42,551 nt of DNA from Candidatus Hydrogenedentota bacterium (GTDB taxonomy: Bacteria; Hydrogenedentota; Hydrogenedentia; Hydrogenedentales; JAEUWI01), in the NCBI GenBank assembly GCA_016182605.1, contig JACPGE010000118.1:1-42551 (forward strand), written 5' to 3'. Below, piece by piece: positions 7,103-22,958 of the stretch. A model generated the notes under the pieces. That model saw only the letters and a program-made list of their open reading frames with translations. It was not told the origin of the DNA and did not search any database. Each line of letters begins with the position of its first letter. Positions within the stretch are counted from its first letter, which is position 1. A program made the translations under genes and the position numbers.

Positions 7103-7780
7103 GTGCAGCATAAAAACCACTACACGCTCCGCGAAGAGATCGCGAATTCCGTCACCCATGGGGTCGGCGTGGTCTTCAGTATCGTGGCGTTGACGCTGCT
7201 GGTAACCTTTGCCTCCTTTGGCCAGGATCCGTGGCGGATTGTGACGGTGACCATCTTCGGGACGACGATGCTGGTGATGTTTCTCGCGTCGACGCTGTAT
7301 CACGCGCTGCCGCACCCGCCGGTAAAACGTGCGCTTCGCGTGGTGGACCACTGCGCCATATATTGTTTAATTGCAGGCACTTACACGCCATTTCTGCTGG
7401 TGTGCATGCGGGGGGTATGGGGCTGGTCGCTCTTTGCACTGCTATGGACCATCGCGCTCGCGGGATGCATCTACAAGATCTGCTTCATCCAATTGAGGAA
7501 CGACCATATTACGGGTTGGCGCAACTGGGTAAGCACGGGGCTCTATGTGGCGATGGGATGGACCATCGTTATTGCCGCAAAGCCGACCCTGGAAATGGTG
7601 CCGGTAGACGCGCTGGTTTGGGTGGCCATTGGGGGGCTGCTGTACACGGCAGGGGTCATCTTTTATCTCTGGGAGCGCCTCCCCTACAACCACGCGATTT
7701 GGCACTGCTTTGTGCTGGGGGGGAGCGTCGCGCATTTCATCGCGATCTTTGCTTTTATTGCGGTGATGCCCGCCGCTTAG
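7103..7780 (+). CDS. Hemolysin III family (PAQR/YqfA) membrane protein
   Basis: This 225-residue protein has seven hydrophobic helices. It carries the hallmarks of the HlyIII/YqfA branch of the PAQR superfamily: an N-terminal EEIANSVTHGVG, then STLYHALPHPPVKRALRVVDH, YCLIAGTYTPFLL, and a C-terminal AIWHCFVLGGSVAHF. The conserved Ser and His residues in these segments form the putative zinc site of the family. The GTG at 7103 follows GCGAGG and matches the usual N-terminus. Family members are linked to membrane stress and, for a few, to hemolysis on overexpression; the in vivo role is unclear. It directly precedes the rpoB promoter region. Confidence 0.9.
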   Translation: MQHKNHYTLREEIANSVTHGVGVVFSIVALTLLVTFASFGQDPWRIVTVTIFGTTMLVMFLASTLYHALPHPPVKRALRVVDHCAIYCLIAGTYTPFLLVCMRGVWGWSLFALLWTIALAGCIYKICFIQLRNDHITGWRNWVSTGLYVAMGWTIVIAAKPTLEMVPVDALVWVAIGGLLYTAGVIFYLWERLPYNHAIWHCFVLGGSVAHFIAIFAFIAVMPAA

Positions 7781-7873
7781 CGCGCTCGCATTGCGGCCCT
7801 CATCCTGAATAGCGCTTAACCCACTGAAATTGGGGCACTTACACACGCACCCCCAATGCGGCACAGGGATTGC

Positions 7874-7902
7874 TTGACAATGCCCTGCGCATTTGTTAAC
7901 CT
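7874..7902 (+). promoter_or_regulatory. Probable rpoBC promoter
   Basis: A perfect -35 (TTGACA, 7874-7879) is followed after 17 bases by TAACCT (7897-7902), which is preceded by a TG extended -10. The predicted transcript starts near 7909, leaving a leader of about 120 bases before rpoB. This indicates that rpoBC has its own promoter here and need not depend on upstream ribosomal genes. Confidence 0.6.
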
Positions 7903-7911
7903 TATAGGCTG

Positions 7912-7973
7912 CACTCCCCCGCGGGGGTGATCTGTCTTTTCCGGCTAATTGACCCGCAGATTGGGCCGGAAAA
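7912..7973 (+). promoter_or_regulatory. Structured rpoB leader: two hairpins
   Basis: The first hairpin, 7912-7929, pairs CACTCCCC with GGGGGTG around a tetraloop right at the predicted transcript start. The second is a perfect 9-bp stem, TTTTCCGGC at 7937-7945 with GCCGGAAAA at 7965-7973, around a 19-base loop. Neither is followed by a U-tract, so they are not ordinary terminators. They could stabilise or control the rpoB mRNA. Confidence 0.5.
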
Positions 7974-8027
7974 CGGGGCCCAAACACTTTCCCCGGACCA
8001 CGTTAACGTAGTCAAAGGAGTACTTGC

Positions 8028-11000
8028 ATGGCCGTAGCTCCCCGCTTCGAGCGCCCGAGTCTGGGCACAATTCCCGACACGATGCCCTTACCGGATCTCA
8101 TCGAGATCCAGACCAAGTCCTACGGTGATTTCCTGCAATGGAATATACCACCTGATGAGCGAGAAGCAAAAGGACTTCAAGAAGTTTTCCTGGACGTGTT
8201 TCCCATCGCCGCACCCAACGGGATGTCGAAGCTCGAATTCGTGCACTATTCCTTCACCCCGCCAAAGTACACGGTACAGGAGTGCCAGGAACGCGGCATG
8301 ACGTATTCGGCGTCCCTGAAGGCGCTGCTGCGTCTGGTGCGCTACGACGATGTCGGCTCCGGGTCCCACTCGGAATTGCGCGAGAAGATGATGCTGGAGC
8401 AGGAGGTGTTTCTGGGCGAACTGCCGATCATGACCGCGACAGGCACGTTCATTATCAACGGCGCCGAGCGCGTGATAGTGAGCCAGCTTCACAAGTCGCC
8501 GGGCGTCTCGTTTGAGCGCAAGCTCCACCAGAACGGCAAGTCGCTGCTTTCCGCGCGGGTGATCCCCTACCGCGGCGCGTGGCTCGAATTCGAATACGAC
8601 GTGAACGACTACTTGTGGCTGACGATCGACCGCCGGTCGAAGCTGCTGGCCACGAGCTTCCTGCGTGCGTTCGGCTATGTGGATGCGGAGGAAATTCTCG
8701 CGCTGTTCTACAAGACCGACACCGTCGAATTCTCCCGCTCGAAAGTGAAGATTGCCGGCAAGTCGCACGATCCGGAAGATTTGGTGGGGTGCTGGGTGGC
8801 GGCGGACGTGATCGATCCGGACACGGGCGAAGTGATGGCGGATGCGGCGAGCGAATTGAAGATGACCACGATCGAGAAGATCATGGGCTCCCACGTTTCC
8901 GAGATCAAGATCCTCAACAAGGAAAACGTCGCGCAAGACTCCACCATTGTGCACACCCTGGCGCAAGACAAGACGCAGACCCAGGAAGACGCCCTCCGCG
9001 AGATCTACTCGCGGATCCGGCCGGGCGATCCGGCAACGGATTCGACCTGCCGTTCCTTCTTCCAGCGCATGTTCTTCGATCCGAGCCGCTACGACTTCGC
9101 CGCGGTGGGCCGCTACAAGATCAACCGCAAGCTCGGGCTGCAAGTGGATCAGGAACTGAAGACGCTGTCGAAGGAAGACGTCGTCGCCACGCTGCAGTAT
9201 CTCGTGAAGCTGCGCACCGGTGAAGGCGTGCTGGACGACATCGATCACCTGGGCAACCGCCGCGTGCGCGCCATTGGCGAATTGCTGTGCAACCAGGTCC
9301 GCATCGGCCTGGTGCGCATGGAACGCACGGTGCGCGAACGCATGAACTTCCAGGACGAAGAACAGCTTTCGCCGCAGACCCTGGTGAATCCCAAGCCGGT
9401 GAGCGCGGTGATCAAAGATTTCTTTGGCCGCAGCCAGCTTTCCCACTTCATGGACCAAATCAATCCGCTCGCGGAATTGACGCACAAGCGGCGCCTGAGC
9501 GCGCTCGGACCAGGCGGTCTGAGCCGTGAACGCGCGGGCTTCGAAGTGCGCGACGTGCACCCCACCCACTATGGCCGCATCTGCCCGATTGAAACGCCGG
9601 AAGGTCCGAACATCGGTCTGATGGCGTCGCTGTCCACCTATTCGCGCCTGAACGATTACGGATTCCTCGAAACTCCGTACATCAAGGTGGAAAGCGGCCG
9701 GGTCATCGACACGATCGAAATGCTTTCCGCCTATGACGAAGACAACTACGTGGTCGCTCAGGCCAACGCGCCCATCGACAAGAAGGGCCGCTTCCTGAAC
9801 CGCACCGTGCTGTGCCGTCACCGGAGCGATTTCCCCCAGGTGCCGCCGGAGCAGGTGGACTACATGGACGTGTCCACGAAGCAGTTGGTGAGCGTGGCCG
9901 CCGCGCTGATCCCCTTCCTGGAGCACGACGACGCGAACCGCGCGCTGATGGGCTCGAACATGCAACGCCAGGCGGTGCCGCTGTTGAAGACCGATTCGCC
10001 GCTGGTGGGCACGGGTCTGGAGCACGTGACCGCGATGAACTCCGGCACGGTGATCCGGGCCGATCGCAGCGGGGTGGTGGAATACGCCGACTCCGAAACG
10101 ATCCGGATCAAGTGCAAAGTGACGAAGGGCGACAACCCCTTCAAGTCCGACGAAGACGTATATACGCTGAAGAAATTCACGCGTTCGAACCAGAACACCT
10201 GCATCAACCAGAGCCCCATCGTGGTGAAGGGCGACAAGGTGGAAGCAGGCGATATCATTGCCGACGGCCCCGCGACGGATAAGGGCGAACTGGCCCTGGG
10301 CCGGAACGTGCTCGTGGGCTTCCTGCCCTGGGAAGGCTACAACTTCGAAGACGCGATCATCCTGAGCGAAGAGCTGGTGAAGGACGACGTGTTCACGTCC
10401 ATCCACATCAGCGTGTACGAACTGGAAGCGCGCGACACGAAGCTGGGCCCGGAAGAAATCACCCGCGACATCCCGAACGTGAGCGAAGAAGCGCTGCGCA
10501 ATCTGGATGAGAGCGGCATTGTCCGCATTGGCTCCAAGGTGGGCCCGGGCGACATTCTCGTGGGCAAGGTGACGCCGAAGGGTGAAACCGAACTCGCGCC
10601 GGAAGAAAAGCTGCTGCGCGCCATCTTCGGCGAAAAGGCCGAAGACGTGCGCGACGCCTCGCTGACGATGCCTCCGGGATCGACCGGCGTGGTGGTGGAC
10701 GTGAAGGTGTGCAGCCGCCGCGACAAGACCTCCGACGCGAACACGAAGAAGCTCGTGCTGAACGATGTGGCGAAGATCAAGCGCCAGTATGACGAGCGCA
10801 TTCAGGAAATCCGCAACACCTTCGTCGAGCTGGTGAAAGACGACATCATGGGGATGAAGATCCTCGAAGACGTCTACGATCACCGCACGGAAGAGCTGGT
10901 GCTGGAAAAAGGCAAGCGTGTACGCGCGGCGCACCTGGACAAGGGCGACTATTCCGTGCTGGCGCGCCTGCGCATAGAAGACAAGAAGGCCCAGCAGAAC

Positions 11001-11888
11001 CTGACGCGCCTGGTGAACATGGCGGCCATGGAAGAGGCGAAGCTTATCGCCTTCCGTGACAGCCAGATTGACCGGCTCCGCAAGGGCGACGAATTGCCCC
11101 CGGGCGTGATCAAGCTGGTGAAGGTCTTCGTGGCGAAAAAACGCCGCATGTCGGTGGGCGACAAGATGGCCGGCCGCCACGGGAACAAAGGGGTGGTGGC
11201 GAAGGTGGTGCCCGTGGAAGACATGCCGTTCCTGCCGGATGGCACGCCGATCCAGATTCTGCTGAACCCGCTGGGCGTGCCTTCGCGCATGAACGTGGGC
11301 CAGTTGCTGGAAACGCACCTGGGCTGGGCGGTGAAGGCGCTGGGGATGAAGGTGGCGACGCCCGTGTTCAACGGCGCGAGCGAAGAGCGCATCAAGGAGT
11401 TCCTGCGCAAGGCGGGCCTGCCGGAAAGCGGCAAGATCCGGCTTCGCGACGGGCGCACCGGAGCGGACCTGGCGCAGGAAACCTGCGTGGGTCAGATCTA
11501 CATGCTGAAGCTGAACCACCTGGTGGATGACAAGATTCACGCGCGGGCGATTGGGCCGTACTCCCTGGTGACGCAGCAACCGCTGGGCGGCAAAGCCCAG
11601 TTCGGCGGCCAGCGTTTCGGGGAAATGGAAGTGTGGGCGCTTCAGGCGTATGGCGCTGCCTATACGCTGCAGGAACTGCTGACGATCAAGTCGGACGACA
11701 TTCAGGGCCGCACCAAGGCCTACGAAGCGATCGTAAAGGGCGAGCGGGAAGTGGAACCCGGCACGCCGGAAAGCTTCAACGTGCTGGTGCGTGAAATGCA
11801 GAGTCTGTGCCTGAATGTGATCAAGCAGGTCCGCGTCGAAGGCACGGCGGAAGTTGAAGAAGAAGTAGAAGAAACCTTGGAGGACTGA
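8028..11888 (+). CDS. rpoB: RNA polymerase beta subunit
   Basis: This is the beta subunit of core RNA polymerase, 1286 residues. ATG 8028 follows AAAGGAG at ideal spacing. The rifampicin-binding region is complete and of the sensitive type: [29 protein letters not shown], keeping the Asp of FMDQ, the His of THKRR and the Ser of LSALG. It continues into the universally conserved [20 protein letters not shown]. The C-terminal part has [13 protein letters not shown] and the clamp-proximal [12 protein letters not shown]. It is followed by rpoC after four bases. Unlike in many bacteria, the genes immediately upstream are not rplJ and rplL. Confidence 0.98.
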
Positions 11889-11892
11889 GACC

Positions 11893-16029
<4,137 letters not shown>

Positions 16030-17314: not shown

Positions 17315-18943
17315 TTATTCCACGCGGAAGATGCGCTTGTCCGTGGAGACTTGGCCGAACTGATCGGTCCACTCCACCTCCACAACGTGGTAGCCCGCGT
17401 TCAGGCCGGCAGGCAACATTGCCTTCCACAAGTGATCCGTCTCGCGCGGCCCGGGCAGGCTGCGACCGGTCACTGCGCGGTTCTGGTTAATGATCTTCTT
17501 TTGGGCTTCCTCGTCCGGATTGGCCACGCCTTCCCCCTTCGCAATGAGTGTTGCCAGGGCACCTTCCCGCGCCTTGCCCTGGGCCACGTAGGGATCCTCC
17601 CCGGAGAACTGGGCCAGGCCCTGCCAATCGCCTCCATCCACCCGCATGCGCACGGTGTCGCGCGCAGAACCGGAAAACACGTTGACGATCACTGGTGTGG
17701 CCGCCAAGTCGGCCTGCTTAAGCAGTTCCGGCGTGTGGATGTTCATCTGGTAATCTGCCGGGCGCCGCGAAACCTTGTAGCGGACGCTGTACTCGTTGTC
17801 CTTGAAGGTCACGAAGGAGTAGCCATTCGGCACACCATCGGACATGGTCGCGTGGGGTATGCCGAGTTCATCATAACCGCCGGTCCACCAGCCGCCGCAG
17901 ACCGTGCCCTGCACGAGATGGTGGTGCGGATTGGGCTGCGCCCACCCGTGGGTTTGATCGAGAAAGAAGTGGCTCTGGCGGTGCCAGTGTGCCGACATCG
18001 AGAAGGTGTGGGGATAATCCTTGAGCAGGTCGAACAGTTTGTCCTTGTCCACCACGTCCATCAGCGGGATGTGCATCATGAAAACGATGAGCCGGTCCTT
18101 CGGCACGTGCTTGAGATCATTCTCGATGAAGGCCATTTGCTCCTGGCCTATCTCGGCATGATACTCCCGCTTGGACACGTCCCAGGCGACATTGTTGAAG
18201 ACGATGAAATGGACTTTCCCGAAATTGAAGGCGTAGTTGGCGGGCCCGAAGACGCGTTCATACGCTTCGTCGGTGTACTTTCGATCCGTGACGTCGAAGT
18301 TCAGGTCGTGGTTGCCAATCACGTAGTACCACGGCACCGGGATGTTCCCCACGCTGTGTGCCAATGAGGATAGGTCCGCCAGATTCTCGAAAACGATATC
18401 GCCCAGTACCACGCCCAACTCCGCATCGGTGTCGAGCAGTTCCTCCACGACGTCATGGGAGATGTAGTCGATCTCTTGCTGGTCGCGGGGCTGCGTGTCC
18501 CCAAAGGCCAGCATCTCGAAAGCGCCCGATTCATCGTGCTCCACCAAGCCAAATTGCAGGTCCCGGGGCAAGGGGCCCGTGGGTTCCAGGCCGGGCACCT
18601 TCAGTTCGGGCGCGCCGTCCGGCTTGTGCGTGTAATAACTCTTCGCGGTGCGCGTGCCTTCATTCAAGTGGAACTGCCACCCCGAAGGCTTGATTACGAA
18701 GATGTTGCAGTCCCGGCTGACGCTCAGGGAGAAGCGCCCCTTCTCGTTGGTCAGGACCACCTCCTGCCCGTTCGAAACGGGCACGTCAGGCAGCCCCGGC
18801 TCACCCTTGTCGAAGGCGCCGTTGCCGTTGGCGTCATGGAATACAATTCCTTTGGCGTCCTTTGCAAAGACTGGAAGACTAACCATGCTGAATAGCAGTA
18901 GAATCGCGAGAACACGACAGCGAGAAACGAAGAGAGAGCCCAT
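17315..18943 (-). CDS. Secreted calcineurin-like phosphoesterase
   Basis: This is a metal-dependent phosphoesterase exported to the periplasm or cell surface. ATG 18943 is chosen because AAGGA sits just upstream; the in-frame GTG at 18958 has no site. The 542-residue protein opens with a signal peptide (CRVLAILLLFSMVSLPVFA). It then has an N-terminal beta domain with a calcium-loop-like HDANGNGAFDKGE, as in MetallophosN domains. The metallophosphatase core has FGDTQ, VVLGDIVFE, VIGNHD, FMMHIP and SAHWHRQ, covering the Asp, Asn and His metal ligands. A C-terminal domain (from about residue 385) resembles MetallophosC. Substrates of such proteins are unknown but are often phosphodiesters or phospholipid headgroups. 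Confidence 0.88.
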   Translation of the reverse strand: MGSLFVSRCRVLAILLLFSMVSLPVFAKDAKGIVFHDANGNGAFDKGEPGLPDVPVSNGQEVVLTNEKGRFSLSVSRDCNIFVIKPSGWQFHLNEGTRTAKSYYTHKPDGAPELKVPGLEPTGPLPRDLQFGLVEHDESGAFEMLAFGDTQPRDQQEIDYISHDVVEELLDTDAELGVVLGDIVFENLADLSSLAHSVGNIPVPWYYVIGNHDLNFDVTDRKYTDEAYERVFGPANYAFNFGKVHFIVFNNVAWDVSKREYHAEIGQEQMAFIENDLKHVPKDRLIVFMMHIPLMDVVDKDKLFDLLKDYPHTFSMSAHWHRQSHFFLDQTHGWAQPNPHHHLVQGTVCGGWWTGGYDELGIPHATMSDGVPNGYSFVTFKDNEYSVRYKVSRRPADYQMNIHTPELLKQADLAATPVIVNVFSGSARDTVRMRVDGGDWQGLAQFSGEDPYVAQGKAREGALATLIAKGEGVANPDEEAQKKIINQNRAVTGRSLPGPRETDHLWKAMLPAGLNAGYHVVEVEWTDQFGQVSTDKRIFRVE

Positions 18944-19298
18944 GACGATATCCTTCACAAGTAGTCAGATTTCTTGAACAACACTTCCAAGTAGAGTATG
19001 GTAATCGGTTAGGACGGACGGATACGGTAATCAATCTAACTGAATTTATGCAATCCCGGTTCATTGATGTAAGGTATAATCAACAATGGGATAAGATATC
19101 GAGAAGAACTTCAAATTTATTCGATTTGCTACGCAATAATTTAATAGCCATGAAGACCATTATTGGCATGATATTGTACACAACTTTCAGGGAAAGCAAG
19201 TCGAATCAATAAGGAGGGGGCTAGTAATTTTTTAGTATCAATTCTGAAATTTTTCTGGTAAAATTCTAATCAGAAACCAATTGCTCTAGGGTCTACTG
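18944..19298. other. AT-rich intergenic region, left edge of the 19-22 kb island
   Basis: Base composition drops sharply here compared with the flanking GC-rich genes. The region has a perfect TATAAT at 19075-19080 without a good -35. A second -10-like TAAAAT at 19259-19264 lies 34 bases before the HTH gene. No tRNA, attachment repeat or hairpin terminator was seen. Confidence 0.5.
19259..19264 (+). promoter_or_regulatory. Candidate -10 of the island operon
   Basis: TAAAAT lies in an AT-rich stretch 34 bases upstream of the first island gene; the -35 region is poorly matched. The upstream TATAAT at 19075-19080 is an alternative that would give a leader of about 210 bases. Confidence 0.35.
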
Positions 19299-19841
19299 AT
19301 GAATGAAATCCCATTGAACAGATCACAAGTCCGTACGGAACTACGAGACTTTATGAAACGCTATCAACTCGGTCAAGATACAGTTGCAGAGGCAACAAAC
19401 GTAAGCCAGAAAACCATATCAAATTTTCTTCGGGGAACTCGAACTCGCCAAGATACAGTAAGCTCAATTAAAAAGTATCTCAAAACCGCACAAAATGAGT
19501 TTAATGAGAAAATTACGCAATTAACAATACTTGGGCGAGATGATCTCCTGTTCTGTCCGGATTGTAACGGATCCCTTGTGGGACTGCCCGCGAAAGCCAA
19601 ATATTGTCCTTACTGTCAACACTCTTTGAGTAGAGCATGTGTTTGCGGTACACCTATTGATCAGCAGGATCAGAATTTCTGTAAGAGGTGTGGTCGCAAC
19701 TTGAACTCAAGGCTGACGATGGACTATCCGCTTCTAAGACATGCACGCGAAAAAGATCGGCTCAGACTCTTGGGAGCGTTCTCGGAATTCTTGGAAGTCT
19801 ATCTCAAAGAAGAAGAATATCAAGAAAGGGAAGCCAAGTGA
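19299..19841 (+). CDS. HTH protein with paired zinc ribbons, putative regulator of the island
   Basis: The 180-residue product has an N-terminal XRE-like helix-turn-helix (about residues 12-60: LGQDTVAEATNVSQKTISNFLRG). Two zinc-ribbon-like knuckles follow. The first uses Cys86, Cys89, Cys103 and Cys106. The second uses Cys114, Cys116, Cys128 and Cys131. The C-terminal tail is charged and helical. DNA binding is likely; the zinc ribbons could contact protein partners or nucleic acid. It is the first gene of a tightly coupled four-gene unit, since its stop overlaps the GTG of the next gene. An autoregulatory repressor or sensor is the natural reading. AT-rich codon use sets it apart from the flanking housekeeping genes. 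Confidence 0.8.
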   Translation: MNEIPLNRSQVRTELRDFMKRYQLGQDTVAEATNVSQKTISNFLRGTRTRQDTVSSIKKYLKTAQNEFNEKITQLTILGRDDLLFCPDCNGSLVGLPAKAKYCPYCQHSLSRACVCGTPIDQQDQNFCKRCGRNLNSRLTMDYPLLRHAREKDRLRLLGAFSEFLEVYLKEEEYQEREAK

Positions 19842-20287
19842 GCGAAATAGTCTTGGGAAATCCAAAATCCATTCCCAATCCTGACATAGCCTACATAGCG
19901 TCGAGAGCAGCATTTGAGCTGGAAAAAGCTAGACTGAACGTGAAGCTAGACTTTCAGTATGTGCACTTACTTGCAAAGCTCTTTGATGACGCATTCAAGT
20001 ATGGTAGAGCCAATCCCGAGGGGGAAACTGAGGTTTCGTATAGTCTCTTTGATCCGATATCCATGCCCCTCCTAAGTGAAGCAATTGGACAAACATATTC
20101 AACCCAACCTACTTCAATTCGAGATCTGGCAACTGAAGCTTTACGAATCGCCCAGAACCTAGAAGAAAACCCTTTGACCGACACCGAAAGGCTTAGGGAC
20201 TTCTGTTTGGCGTTATCTAGTGTCGCGGAAGAGCGATATGAGCCGGTCGACTCCGAAGAAAGCGCCTCAGAACCGTGCGAACTGTAA
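19838..20287 (+). CDS. Island protein of unknown function, mainly helical
   Basis: I do not recognise this 149-residue protein. The GTG at 19838 overlaps the previous stop by four bases, which fixes the start. The sequence is soluble, acidic and predicted helical (IASRAAFELEKARLNVKLDFQYVHLLAKLFDDAF; TSIRDLATEALRIAQNLEENP), with no cysteine motif, membrane segment or signal peptide. Its position between the HTH gene and the peptidase, with overlaps on both sides, suggests equimolar production with a neighbour. An adaptor, an inhibitor or the peptidase's substrate are all possible; nothing in the sequence decides. Confidence 0.7.
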   Translation: MSEIVLGNPKSIPNPDIAYIASRAAFELEKARLNVKLDFQYVHLLAKLFDDAFKYGRANPEGETEVSYSLFDPISMPLLSEAIGQTYSTQPTSIRDLATEALRIAQNLEENPLTDTERLRDFCLALSSVAEERYEPVDSEESASEPCEL

Positions 20288-21585
20288 AGAGTCTACTCAG
20301 GTATGCAAGAGACCGATTGACAAGTTTCTCCGAGGAGATCGATCGGTTGAGAGACTCGGATTTTCCATACGATGCTTCTCGGCAGGCCCTGGAAGTTATT
20401 GGCGTGAGAATAGCTGAGCACAAACAGCAAATAACCGAAGCTCTTTCCTTATCACATGCAAACGAAAAAACCCTTAGAAAACTCGCAGGGACGTCTCTAA
20501 ACGATATTGAGAGCCTTTTGCCATTTCTTGGATTCATTCTAAGATCTACAAACATTAGGAATGGTTTCGAAGCCTATTTTCCCCTTCAACGGCTATGTCA
20601 GAAAGTTCTGGGCGACGATGTAAGTTTGTTGCTTAGTTCTGAATGGAAGTATTCCCCATATATTTATAATACTCATAATCCGTCGGTAAGCCTCTTGAGA
20701 GATTTTGTAATGGTGGGTTTGCCCGCTCATGAATCTGCCAATCCATTGATCTTACCTCTCGCTGGGCATGAGTTGGGGCATGCCATCTGGGCACATAAAG
20801 GCCTCAACAAGGATGTGGAATTCGTATCTCGAAAGTTCGTTGAAGGATACTTTACAAAGACTTGGTCAGAATGTCAGATACACTTTGCACCGCAAAGCTT
20901 GCCCGACTTTTTTGAGAAGCCATCACCCCTGTTTTTAGAAGCGGTGCAATGGGCAAATATGCAATTACAGGAGATATTCAGTGATTACGTTGGAATAAGG
21001 ATATTTGGGAAAGCCTATCTGAATGCGTTTGCCTATCTCTTGTCACCTAATAAGGAACGGCGTCGAAGTCCAGCATATCCGTCCACTTCTGACCGAATTA
21101 ACTTTCAGGTTGAGGCAGCAAAAGCCTTTGGCGCGATACTGGACAATCACTACGTTGACGAATATTCCAAGCACTTTGACAATAGACAACCCGTGGCTTG
21201 GAAATCAGAAAGAGAAAAGATACTTTTGGATGCCGCAGAAACGGCAGTACAATCCTCCGTCGAAAACATACAGAATCTTGCAGACAGAATAGTTGAAGAA
21301 GCCGGAATAGAAACTCCTGACGAAAGCTCCGGATGTCATCTTGCTCAACACATGTACTCTTACTTAGCCCCGTGTTCTGGAGCACAGTCAATCGCGGAAA
21401 TTACAAACGCTGGATGGAAAATATACAATCATTTGGAGGAATGGCAAGTCGAAGGCGATAAAATGCAGTTGTTGCGCGAGCTACTATTGAAGTCTTTTGA
21501 GATTCACGAAGTGGAAACGAGGATTTCGAATGCTAATAGGTTCAGAGATAATAGCGGACATGCTGAGGAATCCGGACCGAGATGA
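20275..21585 (+). CDS. HEXXH zinc metallopeptidase-like protein of the island
   Basis: The 436-residue protein has a clear gluzincin-type motif. HELGH at residues 165-169 lies in a hydrophobic helix (LILPLAGHELGHAIWAHKG). EIFSDYVG at 233-240 follows about 65 residues later, where Glu233 can supply the third zinc ligand and Asp237 the usual supporting acid. The first 120 residues are helical, possibly coiled, and may be a sensor or partner-binding region; the C-terminal 150 residues are also helical. There is no signal peptide, so it should act in the cytoplasm. The GTG start at 20275 lies inside the previous gene (13-base overlap), and its end overlaps the next by 56 bases. I cannot match it to a named family. 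Confidence 0.75.
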   Translation: MRTVKSLLRYARDRLTSFSEEIDRLRDSDFPYDASRQALEVIGVRIAEHKQQITEALSLSHANEKTLRKLAGTSLNDIESLLPFLGFILRSTNIRNGFEAYFPLQRLCQKVLGDDVSLLLSSEWKYSPYIYNTHNPSVSLLRDFVMVGLPAHESANPLILPLAGHELGHAIWAHKGLNKDVEFVSRKFVEGYFTKTWSECQIHFAPQSLPDFFEKPSPLFLEAVQWANMQLQEIFSDYVGIRIFGKAYLNAFAYLLSPNKERRRSPAYPSTSDRINFQVEAAKAFGAILDNHYVDEYSKHFDNRQPVAWKSEREKILLDAAETAVQSSVENIQNLADRIVEEAGIETPDESSGCHLAQHMYSYLAPCSGAQSIAEITNAGWKIYNHLEEWQVEGDKMQLLRELLLKSFEIHEVETRISNANRFRDNSGHAEESGPR

Positions 21586-22132
21586 TCCTCTGCTTGTAGT
21601 CCCCAAACCAGACGTAAATGATCTGATTCGCGCGGGTTCTGCTTCATTGGATCTGAGGTTAGGCACTTGGTTCGGGACGTTAAGAGGGGAGCGCACATCC
21701 TGCCTAGCCGTCTCATCGAGACATACTGAGCCGAGCTTGGTCAAACTCTTGCATGTGCCCTTTGGGAAACCTTTCTACTTGCATCCCAAGGCATTTGTAC
21801 TGGCATCAACACTTGAATGGATTCGAGTTCCGTCGAAGCTAGCTGGCTCTGTCACCGCTCGCTCTTCTTGGGGGAGGCGAGGGCTGATCATTGCAACTGC
21901 CACAGGTGTACACCCTGGATTCACTGGATGTCTAACTTTAGAATTGGCGAACGTGGGGGCGGCTCCAATCGAACTTCGGCCTGGTATGTCCCTTTGCCAG
22001 CTCTTCTTTGAAGAAGTTAATCGTGACTTGAAAACAACGGATAAGTCGAGATTTCTGGGTCGCCGAAAGCCAATCCTTGGAAAGATCGATCTTGATTGGA
22101 TAGCAAAGGCTCTCCAAGTACAAAATCCATAA
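21530..22132 (+). CDS. dCTP deaminase-family protein
   Basis: The 200-residue product belongs to the dCTP deaminase/dUTPase superfamily. It has the early SGSASLDLRLG-like segment (AGSASLDLRLGTWFG), the nucleotide-binding SVTARSSWGRRGL, and the catalytic strand GVHPGFTGCLTLELAN. Glu138 falls exactly where the E. coli Dcd catalytic Glu lies. RPGMSLCQLFF closes the fold. One residue differs from classical Dcd: His128 replaces the Asp of the DPG motif. The ATG at 21530 is preferred to an upstream TTG at 21497. dCTP deaminases are both housekeeping enzymes in dUMP synthesis and, in other bacteria, anti-phage proteins that drain dCTP. Its location at the end of an AT-rich coupled cassette favours the second role, but that is inference. 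Confidence 0.85.
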   Translation: MLIGSEIIADMLRNPDRDDPLLVVPKPDVNDLIRAGSASLDLRLGTWFGTLRGERTSCLAVSSRHTEPSLVKLLHVPFGKPFYLHPKAFVLASTLEWIRVPSKLAGSVTARSSWGRRGLIIATATGVHPGFTGCLTLELANVGAAPIELRPGMSLCQLFFEEVNRDLKTTDKSRFLGRRKPILGKIDLDWIAKALQVQNP

Positions 22133-22439
22133 TTGCTGGCCACCATAATCAGATACCAAAATTCTCCCTGACATTCAGTGGAAAGAGGCGATGCTGAGGC
22201 ATGGAGCCGGTGTAGCTTTCTTGAATTCCGCCCTCTACACATTTAGCAGTGGTGGGCGCGGCCTATGCCGAAATCACATTAAAATCACTTGGTAGTGATG
22301 TATTGCCGTGCCTTGATCCTTACCTCCAAGAAACGTATCGTATCCTGTGCGGGTCCTTCAACCTTAACCTGTGGCTCATGTGTGCAAAGCAGGTTTTGAC
22401 CCTAAATTCACCAAGGCAACAATACGCGGGAGATTGAGC
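22133..22439. other. Intergenic region, right edge of the island
   Basis: Composition returns to GC-rich across this stretch. It holds a small perfect inverted repeat, ATCACT (22284-22289) and AGTGAT (22294-22299) around TGGT, upstream of the peroxidase gene and possibly an operator. A 62-codon frame at 22249-22437 lacks any recognisable feature and is not called. Confidence 0.5.
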
Positions 22440-22958
22440 ATGAAAGAACGTACCGGAGAATTGACCTTCAAGGGCAACCCCATGACCCTGCTGGGTGACA
22501 AGGTGACCGTGGGCCAGAAAGCCCCCGATTTTACCCTGATTACGAACAAACTGGGGCGCGCAAGCCTGGCGGACAGCGCGGGCAAGGTGCGTCTGATCAG
22601 TGTGGTGCCGTCTTTGGACACCGGCATCTGCGACCAGCAGACACGGAAATTCAACGAAGCTGCCAGCAGCCTGGGGGAAGGGGTGGCGATTCTGACCGTG
22701 AGTGCCGACCTGCCCTTTGCCCAGGGCCGGTGGTGCGGCGCGGCCGGGGTGGACCGGGTGGAAACCCTTTCCGACCATTTTGACATGAATTTCGGCAATG
22801 CCTATGGCACCCACGTGAAAGAACTGCGCTTGGACTCCCGGGCGGTTTTTGTGGTGGATGCCTCCGGCACGGTGACCTACGCGCAGTATTGCGGCGAGAT
22901 TGCCGAGCATCCGGATTACGACAGCGCACTCGCGGCCGTGAAATCCGCGCTGGGATAG
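22440..22958 (+). CDS. tpx: Thiol peroxidase (Tpx, atypical 2-Cys peroxiredoxin)
   Basis: This enzyme reduces hydrogen and organic peroxides using thioredoxin as electron donor. The 172-residue protein is full length for Tpx. It shows VTVGQKAPDFTL, the catalytic PSLDTGICDQQTRKFN with peroxidatic Cys64, and LPFAQGRWCGAAGV with resolving Cys99, the pair that forms the intramolecular disulfide. The ATG at 22440 gives the usual N-terminus (ERTGELTFKGNPMTLLG). It is the first GC-rich gene after the island and appears monocistronic. Confidence 0.96.
   Translation: MKERTGELTFKGNPMTLLGDKVTVGQKAPDFTLITNKLGRASLADSAGKVRLISVVPSLDTGICDQQTRKFNEAASSLGEGVAILTVSADLPFAQGRWCGAAGVDRVETLSDHFDMNFGNAYGTHVKELRLDSRAVFVVDASGTVTYAQYCGEIAEHPDYDSALAAVKSALG

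Follow-up and report, generated by a model that had tools for sequence, protein, structure and literature searches.

The window, by which we mean the whole 42,551-nucleotide stretch of DNA that was analyzed, carries a cassette of four genes on one strand, and the open reading frame coordinates confirm the overlaps of 4 bases (genes 1 and 2), 13 bases (genes 2 and 3), and 56 bases (genes 3 and 4) reported in an earlier note made from the sequence alone. The cassette had also been described as AT-richer than its surroundings and as lying between housekeeping genes, and both descriptions hold. Its GC content is 45.6%, against 61.1% for the remainder of the window, where the lowest value for any equally long stretch is 0.579 (mean, 0.613; standard deviation, 0.016). 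A phosphoesterase gene lies on the left and tpx and carA lie on the right, so that both flanks are housekeeping-like (Table 1). The phosphoesterase gene and tpx are adjacent and divergent in G033, G035, G037, and G038, four relatives from the same family, and leave no room for a cassette there. Because the flanking genes adjoin in these relatives, the cassette is an insertion of ~3.4 kb into a conserved locus, and the four-gene stretch is a real inserted DNA island. No known defense gene was found beside this copy.

Table 1. Features of the locus and of related loci (positions refer to the window unless a locus is named)
Feature	Position	Strand	Basis
Phosphoesterase, secreted; left flank of island, divergent	17315-18958	-	
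Inserted AT-rich island	18960..22439	(.)	GC 0.449 vs 0.611 elsewhere in window
Gene 1, XRE-like HTH plus double zinc ribbon; probable local regulator, accessory, not core	19299..19841	+	Pfam DZR E 6e-6, HTH_31 E 7e-4
Gene 2, 149-aa helical partner; core	19838..20287	+	Homologue directly upstream of peptidase in all window-type loci reaching there
Gene 3, 436-aa HEXXH...ExxxD gluzincin-like metallopeptidase; core	20275..21585	+	Invariant H165, E166, H169, E233, D237
Gene 4, dUTPase-fold dCTP deaminase homologue; core	21530..22132	+	TIGR02274 115 bits, cut-off 92.8; Pfam DCD E 1.6e-31
tpx (thiol peroxidase); right flank of island	22440-22958	+	
~112-aa gene between regulators and triad	about 9100-9500 in L021, L024, L026, L027; 7980-8312 in L022		

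Scanning 84,980 species genomes with a profile built from the peptidase alignment yielded 29 loci. When the Rhizobium copies are counted once and the window and its sister genome G035 are added, 26 window-type loci can be assessed, and all 26 have the same order: small helical protein, HEXXH peptidase, and homologue of dCTP deaminase (Dcd). One dcd among these loci is cut by a contig end, and the peptidase frame is broken in four. The three genes share a strand and overlap, or nearly so, in each window-type locus uncut by a contig end. Genes 2, 3, and 4 make up a genuine module, conserved and passed on as one fixed set of overlapping genes; of the co-occurrence proposed earlier for all four families, the part concerning these three stands and gene 1 falls outside the core. 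That the genes are chance neighbors in an AT-rich region has practically no probability left and is already refuted by the recurrence of the three-gene order in many distant genomes.

The four broken peptidase genes are split by a stop codon or frameshift between intact neighbors (L012:9980-11239, L029:5554-6689, L030:9995-11253, and L032:9998-11243), for which assembly errors, decay, and silencing of a costly gene are candidate readings. Hosts of the window type, which are metagenome-assembled genomes or isolates named as in their records, span at least eight phyla and include Alphaproteobacteria, Desulfobacterales, Deltaproteobacteria/Myxococcota, Planctomycetota, Verrucomicrobiota, Kiritimatiellota, Bacteroidota, and Electryoneota. 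The peptidase is rare and patchy in samples that include the query genomes, occurring in 2 of 68 genomes of the window's own phylum, 2 of 385 genomes of Alphaproteobacteria, and 3 of 392 and 2 of 388 genomes of two other phyla. The peptidase and deaminase trees are too weakly resolved for a detailed comparison of their inheritance, although both recover the alphaproteobacterial groups.

The HTH domain and two zinc ribbons ascribed to gene 1 are real, though the Pfam matches are weak. Gene 1 has no counterpart in the triad loci of relatives, and we rejected it as a core component, as it occurs in the window's module alone; its distant paralogues, in its own genome and related genomes, do not adjoin a triad. 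The regulators of relatives differ, being XRE plus M78, MerR, HTH-zinc ribbon, or none recognized: the alphaproteobacterial group has XRE and M78 genes and the ~112-aa gene instead of gene 1, and other relatives have MerR. Since relatives carry unrelated regulators at the module, or none, gene 1 is the filler of a regulator slot, local and replaceable. The model in which the peptidase cleaves the HTH protein cannot be general, because the regulators vary and the HTH gene lies outside the conserved core.

Two side observations concern these accessory genes. One HTH/zinc ribbon paralogue in the window's own genome (L041:785-1923, contig C57) lies upstream of a small protein of nuclease-like appearance, and this type of regulator may serve several conflict genes. 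The ~112-aa protein belongs to no family and carries a motif, QIxGYxTxxExxRF..YA...GL, conserved in the alphaproteobacterial group.

Gene 2 was said to have no recognizable family, and we likewise found no match in Pfam, NCBIfam, PADLOC, or solved structures; a fold search of its AlphaFold model (five helices; pLDDT, 78.7) against the PDB returned nothing. It is the fastest-changing member of the triad, with homologues at 14-29% identity to the window protein. The residues picked out earlier in gene 3 (H165ELGH, E233, and D237) do not vary across the 24 sequences that were aligned. An HEXXH helix together with an ExxxD helix is the gluzincin arrangement, and the model of the peptidase (pLDDT, 88), whose predicted fold is mostly helical, places these motifs on helices 157-174 and 218-244; an invariant HEXXH with a downstream helix Glu is what the gluzincin sequence signature comprises. 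Gene 3 matched nothing in Pfam, NCBIfam, or PADLOC, and a Foldseek search of the model, in which the active-site strands are short and one loop is of low confidence, found no match in the PDB or among viral structures. Sequence and model together indicate that gene 3 is a metallopeptidase of a new family.

The earlier comparison with XRE/ImmA-type pairs did not survive. The module resembles XRE-ImmA/IrrE (M78) and CapH/CapP systems in that an HTH gene and an HEXXH peptidase gene share an operon, but we rejected an ImmA/IrrE identity for gene 3, which lacks a Pfam M78 match and is predicted to adopt a different, largely helical fold; some relatives also carry a distinct M78 gene alongside the peptidase gene.

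The assignment of gene 4 to the dCTP deaminase family is sound. It scores above the TIGR02274 cut-off and reaches 109.9 against Pfam DCD (cut-off, 27), Glu138 is present in 37 of 37 module enzymes, and the SS..R motif is kept with few substitutions. These features are shared with housekeeping Dcd (TIGR02274; E. coli, PDB 2j4h/1xs1), from which the module enzymes differ in several respects besides their genetic tie to a peptidase. The combination of Asp128 (xDPGx) with a C-terminal KYxGQ lid is not found: at E. coli position 128, where four of five comparison enzymes have Asp, each of the 37 module enzymes has His, Gln, Asn, or Glu (His in the window copy), one residue is deleted before this position, and the lid motif is altered in the window type. 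The corresponding Asp of dUTPases is catalytic and contacts the sugar, so its loss predicts that the module enzyme has no dUTPase activity and an altered substrate recognition. Deamination may persist despite this loss, although turnover of dCTP itself is not assured, Asp128 being lost throughout.

An ordinary dcd, with Asp128 and KYQGQ, is present elsewhere in the window's genome, and the module is therefore unneeded for routine dCTP metabolism. This finding, and the divergence of the module clade at Asp128, count against the notion that the module is metabolic cargo, with an accessory dcd feeding dTTP synthesis beside a housekeeping peptidase. Such cargo would suit the presence of dcd on many plasmids, but wherever a locus is long enough to judge, the module Dcd clade is accompanied by both the peptidase and the helical partner, and we consider the idea very improbable. 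Nor were deaminases of the module clade found alone in housekeeping contexts without conserved neighbors, which the earlier note had named as grounds for abandoning its model. Separately, a dcd on a Mesorhizobium loti plasmid (L095:3953-4522) has His at position 128 amid poorly annotated neighbors, and no HEXXH peptidase is annotated adjacent to this dcd, the flank of which is sparsely annotated, or to those of Salinibaculum and Thermobispora.

Through relatives of Dcd, we reached two further peptidase subtypes with the order small protein, HEXXH protein, dcd. Subtype B occurs at a second locus in G035 (L087), in Duganella (L034), and on a Bradyrhizobium plasmid, and subtype C occurs in Emticicia, Agrobacterium, Shinella, Rhizobium, and B. 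japonicum plasmids and in P1-like phage-plasmids of E. coli and Salmonella. In hhalign comparisons, the window-type peptidase matched that of subtype B over nearly its full length (99.1% probability; E, 1e-18) and that of subtype C at 86.7% (E, 4e-6), and subtypes B and C matched each other at 92.7%. These profile matches indicate that the three peptidases are homologous; the small proteins of subtypes B and C match gene 2 by position only.

Two further plasmid loci are recorded here in their own right. On a Sinorhizobium terangae plasmid (L104:4674-6062), a related HEVGH protein, with no dcd alongside, is encoded after a very large ATP-binding protein and next to a C25-type peptidase; the module's peptidase family may have another role here. 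On a B. japonicum plasmid (L103:2480-4712 and 7710-12506), a protein with a carbon-nitrogen-hydrolase domain and an annotated ATP-dependent helicase flank the subtype C module, with which they perhaps form a larger defense island.

Many carriers are mobile. The window-type module of Rhizobium lies on conjugative plasmids, and the E. coli type, present in 8 of 5,426 complete genomes, is always on a plasmid of 90-109 kb; in the two examples with annotation, it lies among genes typical of phage-plasmids (ref, icd-like, maturation control, and baseplate). A three-gene unit of this type occupies L100:5522-7526 (pEC213_2). In one viral contig, the module lies directly 3' of phage tail genes. A viral scan with subtype B confirmed nothing, and the peptidase had no match among INPHARED phage records. 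Carriage by conjugative plasmids, phage-plasmids, and prophages raises the question of whether the module, working by the mechanism proposed below, serves the fitness of the mobile element or its competition with others (plasmid stabilization, or control of superinfection or conjugation) and not the anti-phage defense of the cell. We think this improbable, given that the window copy is a solitary chromosomal insertion, that no mobile-element genes were noted at many loci on large contigs, and that some modules are positioned inside or beside restriction-modification loci.

The Emticicia module interrupts a type I restriction locus, with the R gene on one side and the S and M genes on the other. 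Directly downstream lie a type I-like restriction protein in L008 and a type III methylase in L019, and there is a type IV GmrSD-like gene upstream in L009 and a type I R gene nearby in L025. Proteases of classes other than the core peptidase also adjoin the module, namely, S8 proteases in L003, L024, L027, and L091, a caspase in L022, and CHAT in L088; three rhizobial plasmids have multiubiquitin and E1 genes ahead of the module, and CapP-like genes are upstream in three relatives. The module is thus mobile and patchy and lies near defense genes or on prophages, as is general for anti-phage systems. Neighbors of the module gave PADLOC matches to 168 families among 99 proteins, and for ordinary dcd genes of these hosts the corresponding figure is 79 among 102. 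This control is rough, since gene calling was mechanical, methylase models account for most of the family counts, and the control dcd genes may include accessory ones. Because the control neighbors also give matches, we do not treat the neighborhood as a statistic. As for the enrichment near defense genes proposed earlier as a check, defense-type neighbors are seen at several loci, but no enrichment value can be attached to them, and the neighborhood is strong circumstantial evidence, suggestive rather than clean.

AvcD is a zinc-dependent enzyme of the CDA fold. Anti-phage deoxycytidine deaminases (AvcID) were reportedly described by Tal et al. and Hsueh et al. in 2022. The module enzyme is likewise predicted to deaminate deoxycytidine nucleotides, but AvcD, which acts on dCTP and dCMP, is held by an RNA antitoxin, whereas the module pairs Dcd with a peptidase and a helical protein, and its enzyme, a Dcd type with the dUTPase fold, is independent of zinc. 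AvcD lowers dCTP and dCMP upon infection (PMC10511110), and DCD enzymes, which form trimers and do not depend on zinc, have no relationship to the zinc-dependent deoxycytidylate deaminases (PMC12088426). The anti-phage precedent invoked earlier for gene 4 does not transfer directly, since the proven enzymes belong to a different family; it is a functional analogy and not membership. We rejected the known dCTP deaminase defense systems (dCTPdeaminase/AvcID) as an identity for gene 4 and its subtype relatives, which have no PADLOC match to them, and the PADLOC models gave no convincing match to any triad gene of any subtype. Protease-linked immunity (S8/IetAS, caspase, and CHAT effectors) differs from the module in that those proteases, which adjoin it in several relatives, are accessory to a core metallopeptidase of no known family. 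The claim that the combination is undescribed as a defense system agrees with its absence from the PADLOC library and from the literature covered by a limited search, outside the scope of which lay subscription papers, preprints, and supplementary tables, where a candidate listing is possible; two conflict-system papers (PMC7159879 and PMC8195603) mention neither dCTP, dUTPase, nor Dcd.

Our favored reading, to which we give a probability of roughly 45%, is that genes 2, 3, and 4 form a mobile three-component conflict module, most probably anti-phage, in which the peptidase gates the deaminase and gene 1 is a replaceable regulator. The defense role is inferred from genomic context. The small helical protein would bind and restrain the peptidase or serve as its substrate, an infection cue would free the peptidase, and proteolysis would then activate the Dcd-type enzyme, which would deaminate dCTP or a related cytidine nucleotide, so that replication of the invader would be starved or poisoned. 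The extra serine, caspase, or CHAT protease beside the module in several relatives may extend this cascade. Of the interpretation first offered for the cassette, the conserved order, the mobile contexts, and the absence of a description in the defense library and literature covered survive, and the HTH protein as a core component, the ImmA-like peptidase, and the deaminase precedent do not.

The opposite logic is less likely: the peptidase would be the toxic effector, the Dcd-type trimer a sensor of nucleotides (dCTP/dUTP or a phage-altered nucleotide), and gene 2 a tether or inhibitor. The replacement of Asp128 in all module Dcds, which implies a change in ordinary substrate handling, would fit such a sensor, as would the size of the peptidase, the largest and a strongly constrained component. 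Invariance of the deamination residue Glu138 in all 37 enzymes, not obviously needed by a pure binding sensor, points the other way, and because Glu138 is kept although Asp128 is lost, we prefer catalysis over pure sensing by the Dcd-type enzyme, but only moderately.

A broader proposition, which we regard as evenly poised between true and false, is that the module represents a widespread new immune class resting on an undescribed family of metallopeptidases, with proteolysis either controlling or being controlled by a dUTPase-fold deaminase of altered substrate recognition, and that the versions on P1-like phage-plasmids of E. coli are weapons against competing phages. If so, nucleotide-targeting immunity would gain a second enzyme fold, placed under protease control, and a peptidase family without structural relatives would await characterization. 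A separate branch of dcd working in immunity would lie hidden among housekeeping-looking dcd genes, in modules that annotation pipelines would miss under the labels "dCTP deaminase" and "hypothetical protein." With the E. coli phage-plasmid version, standard laboratory strains suffice for a direct test.
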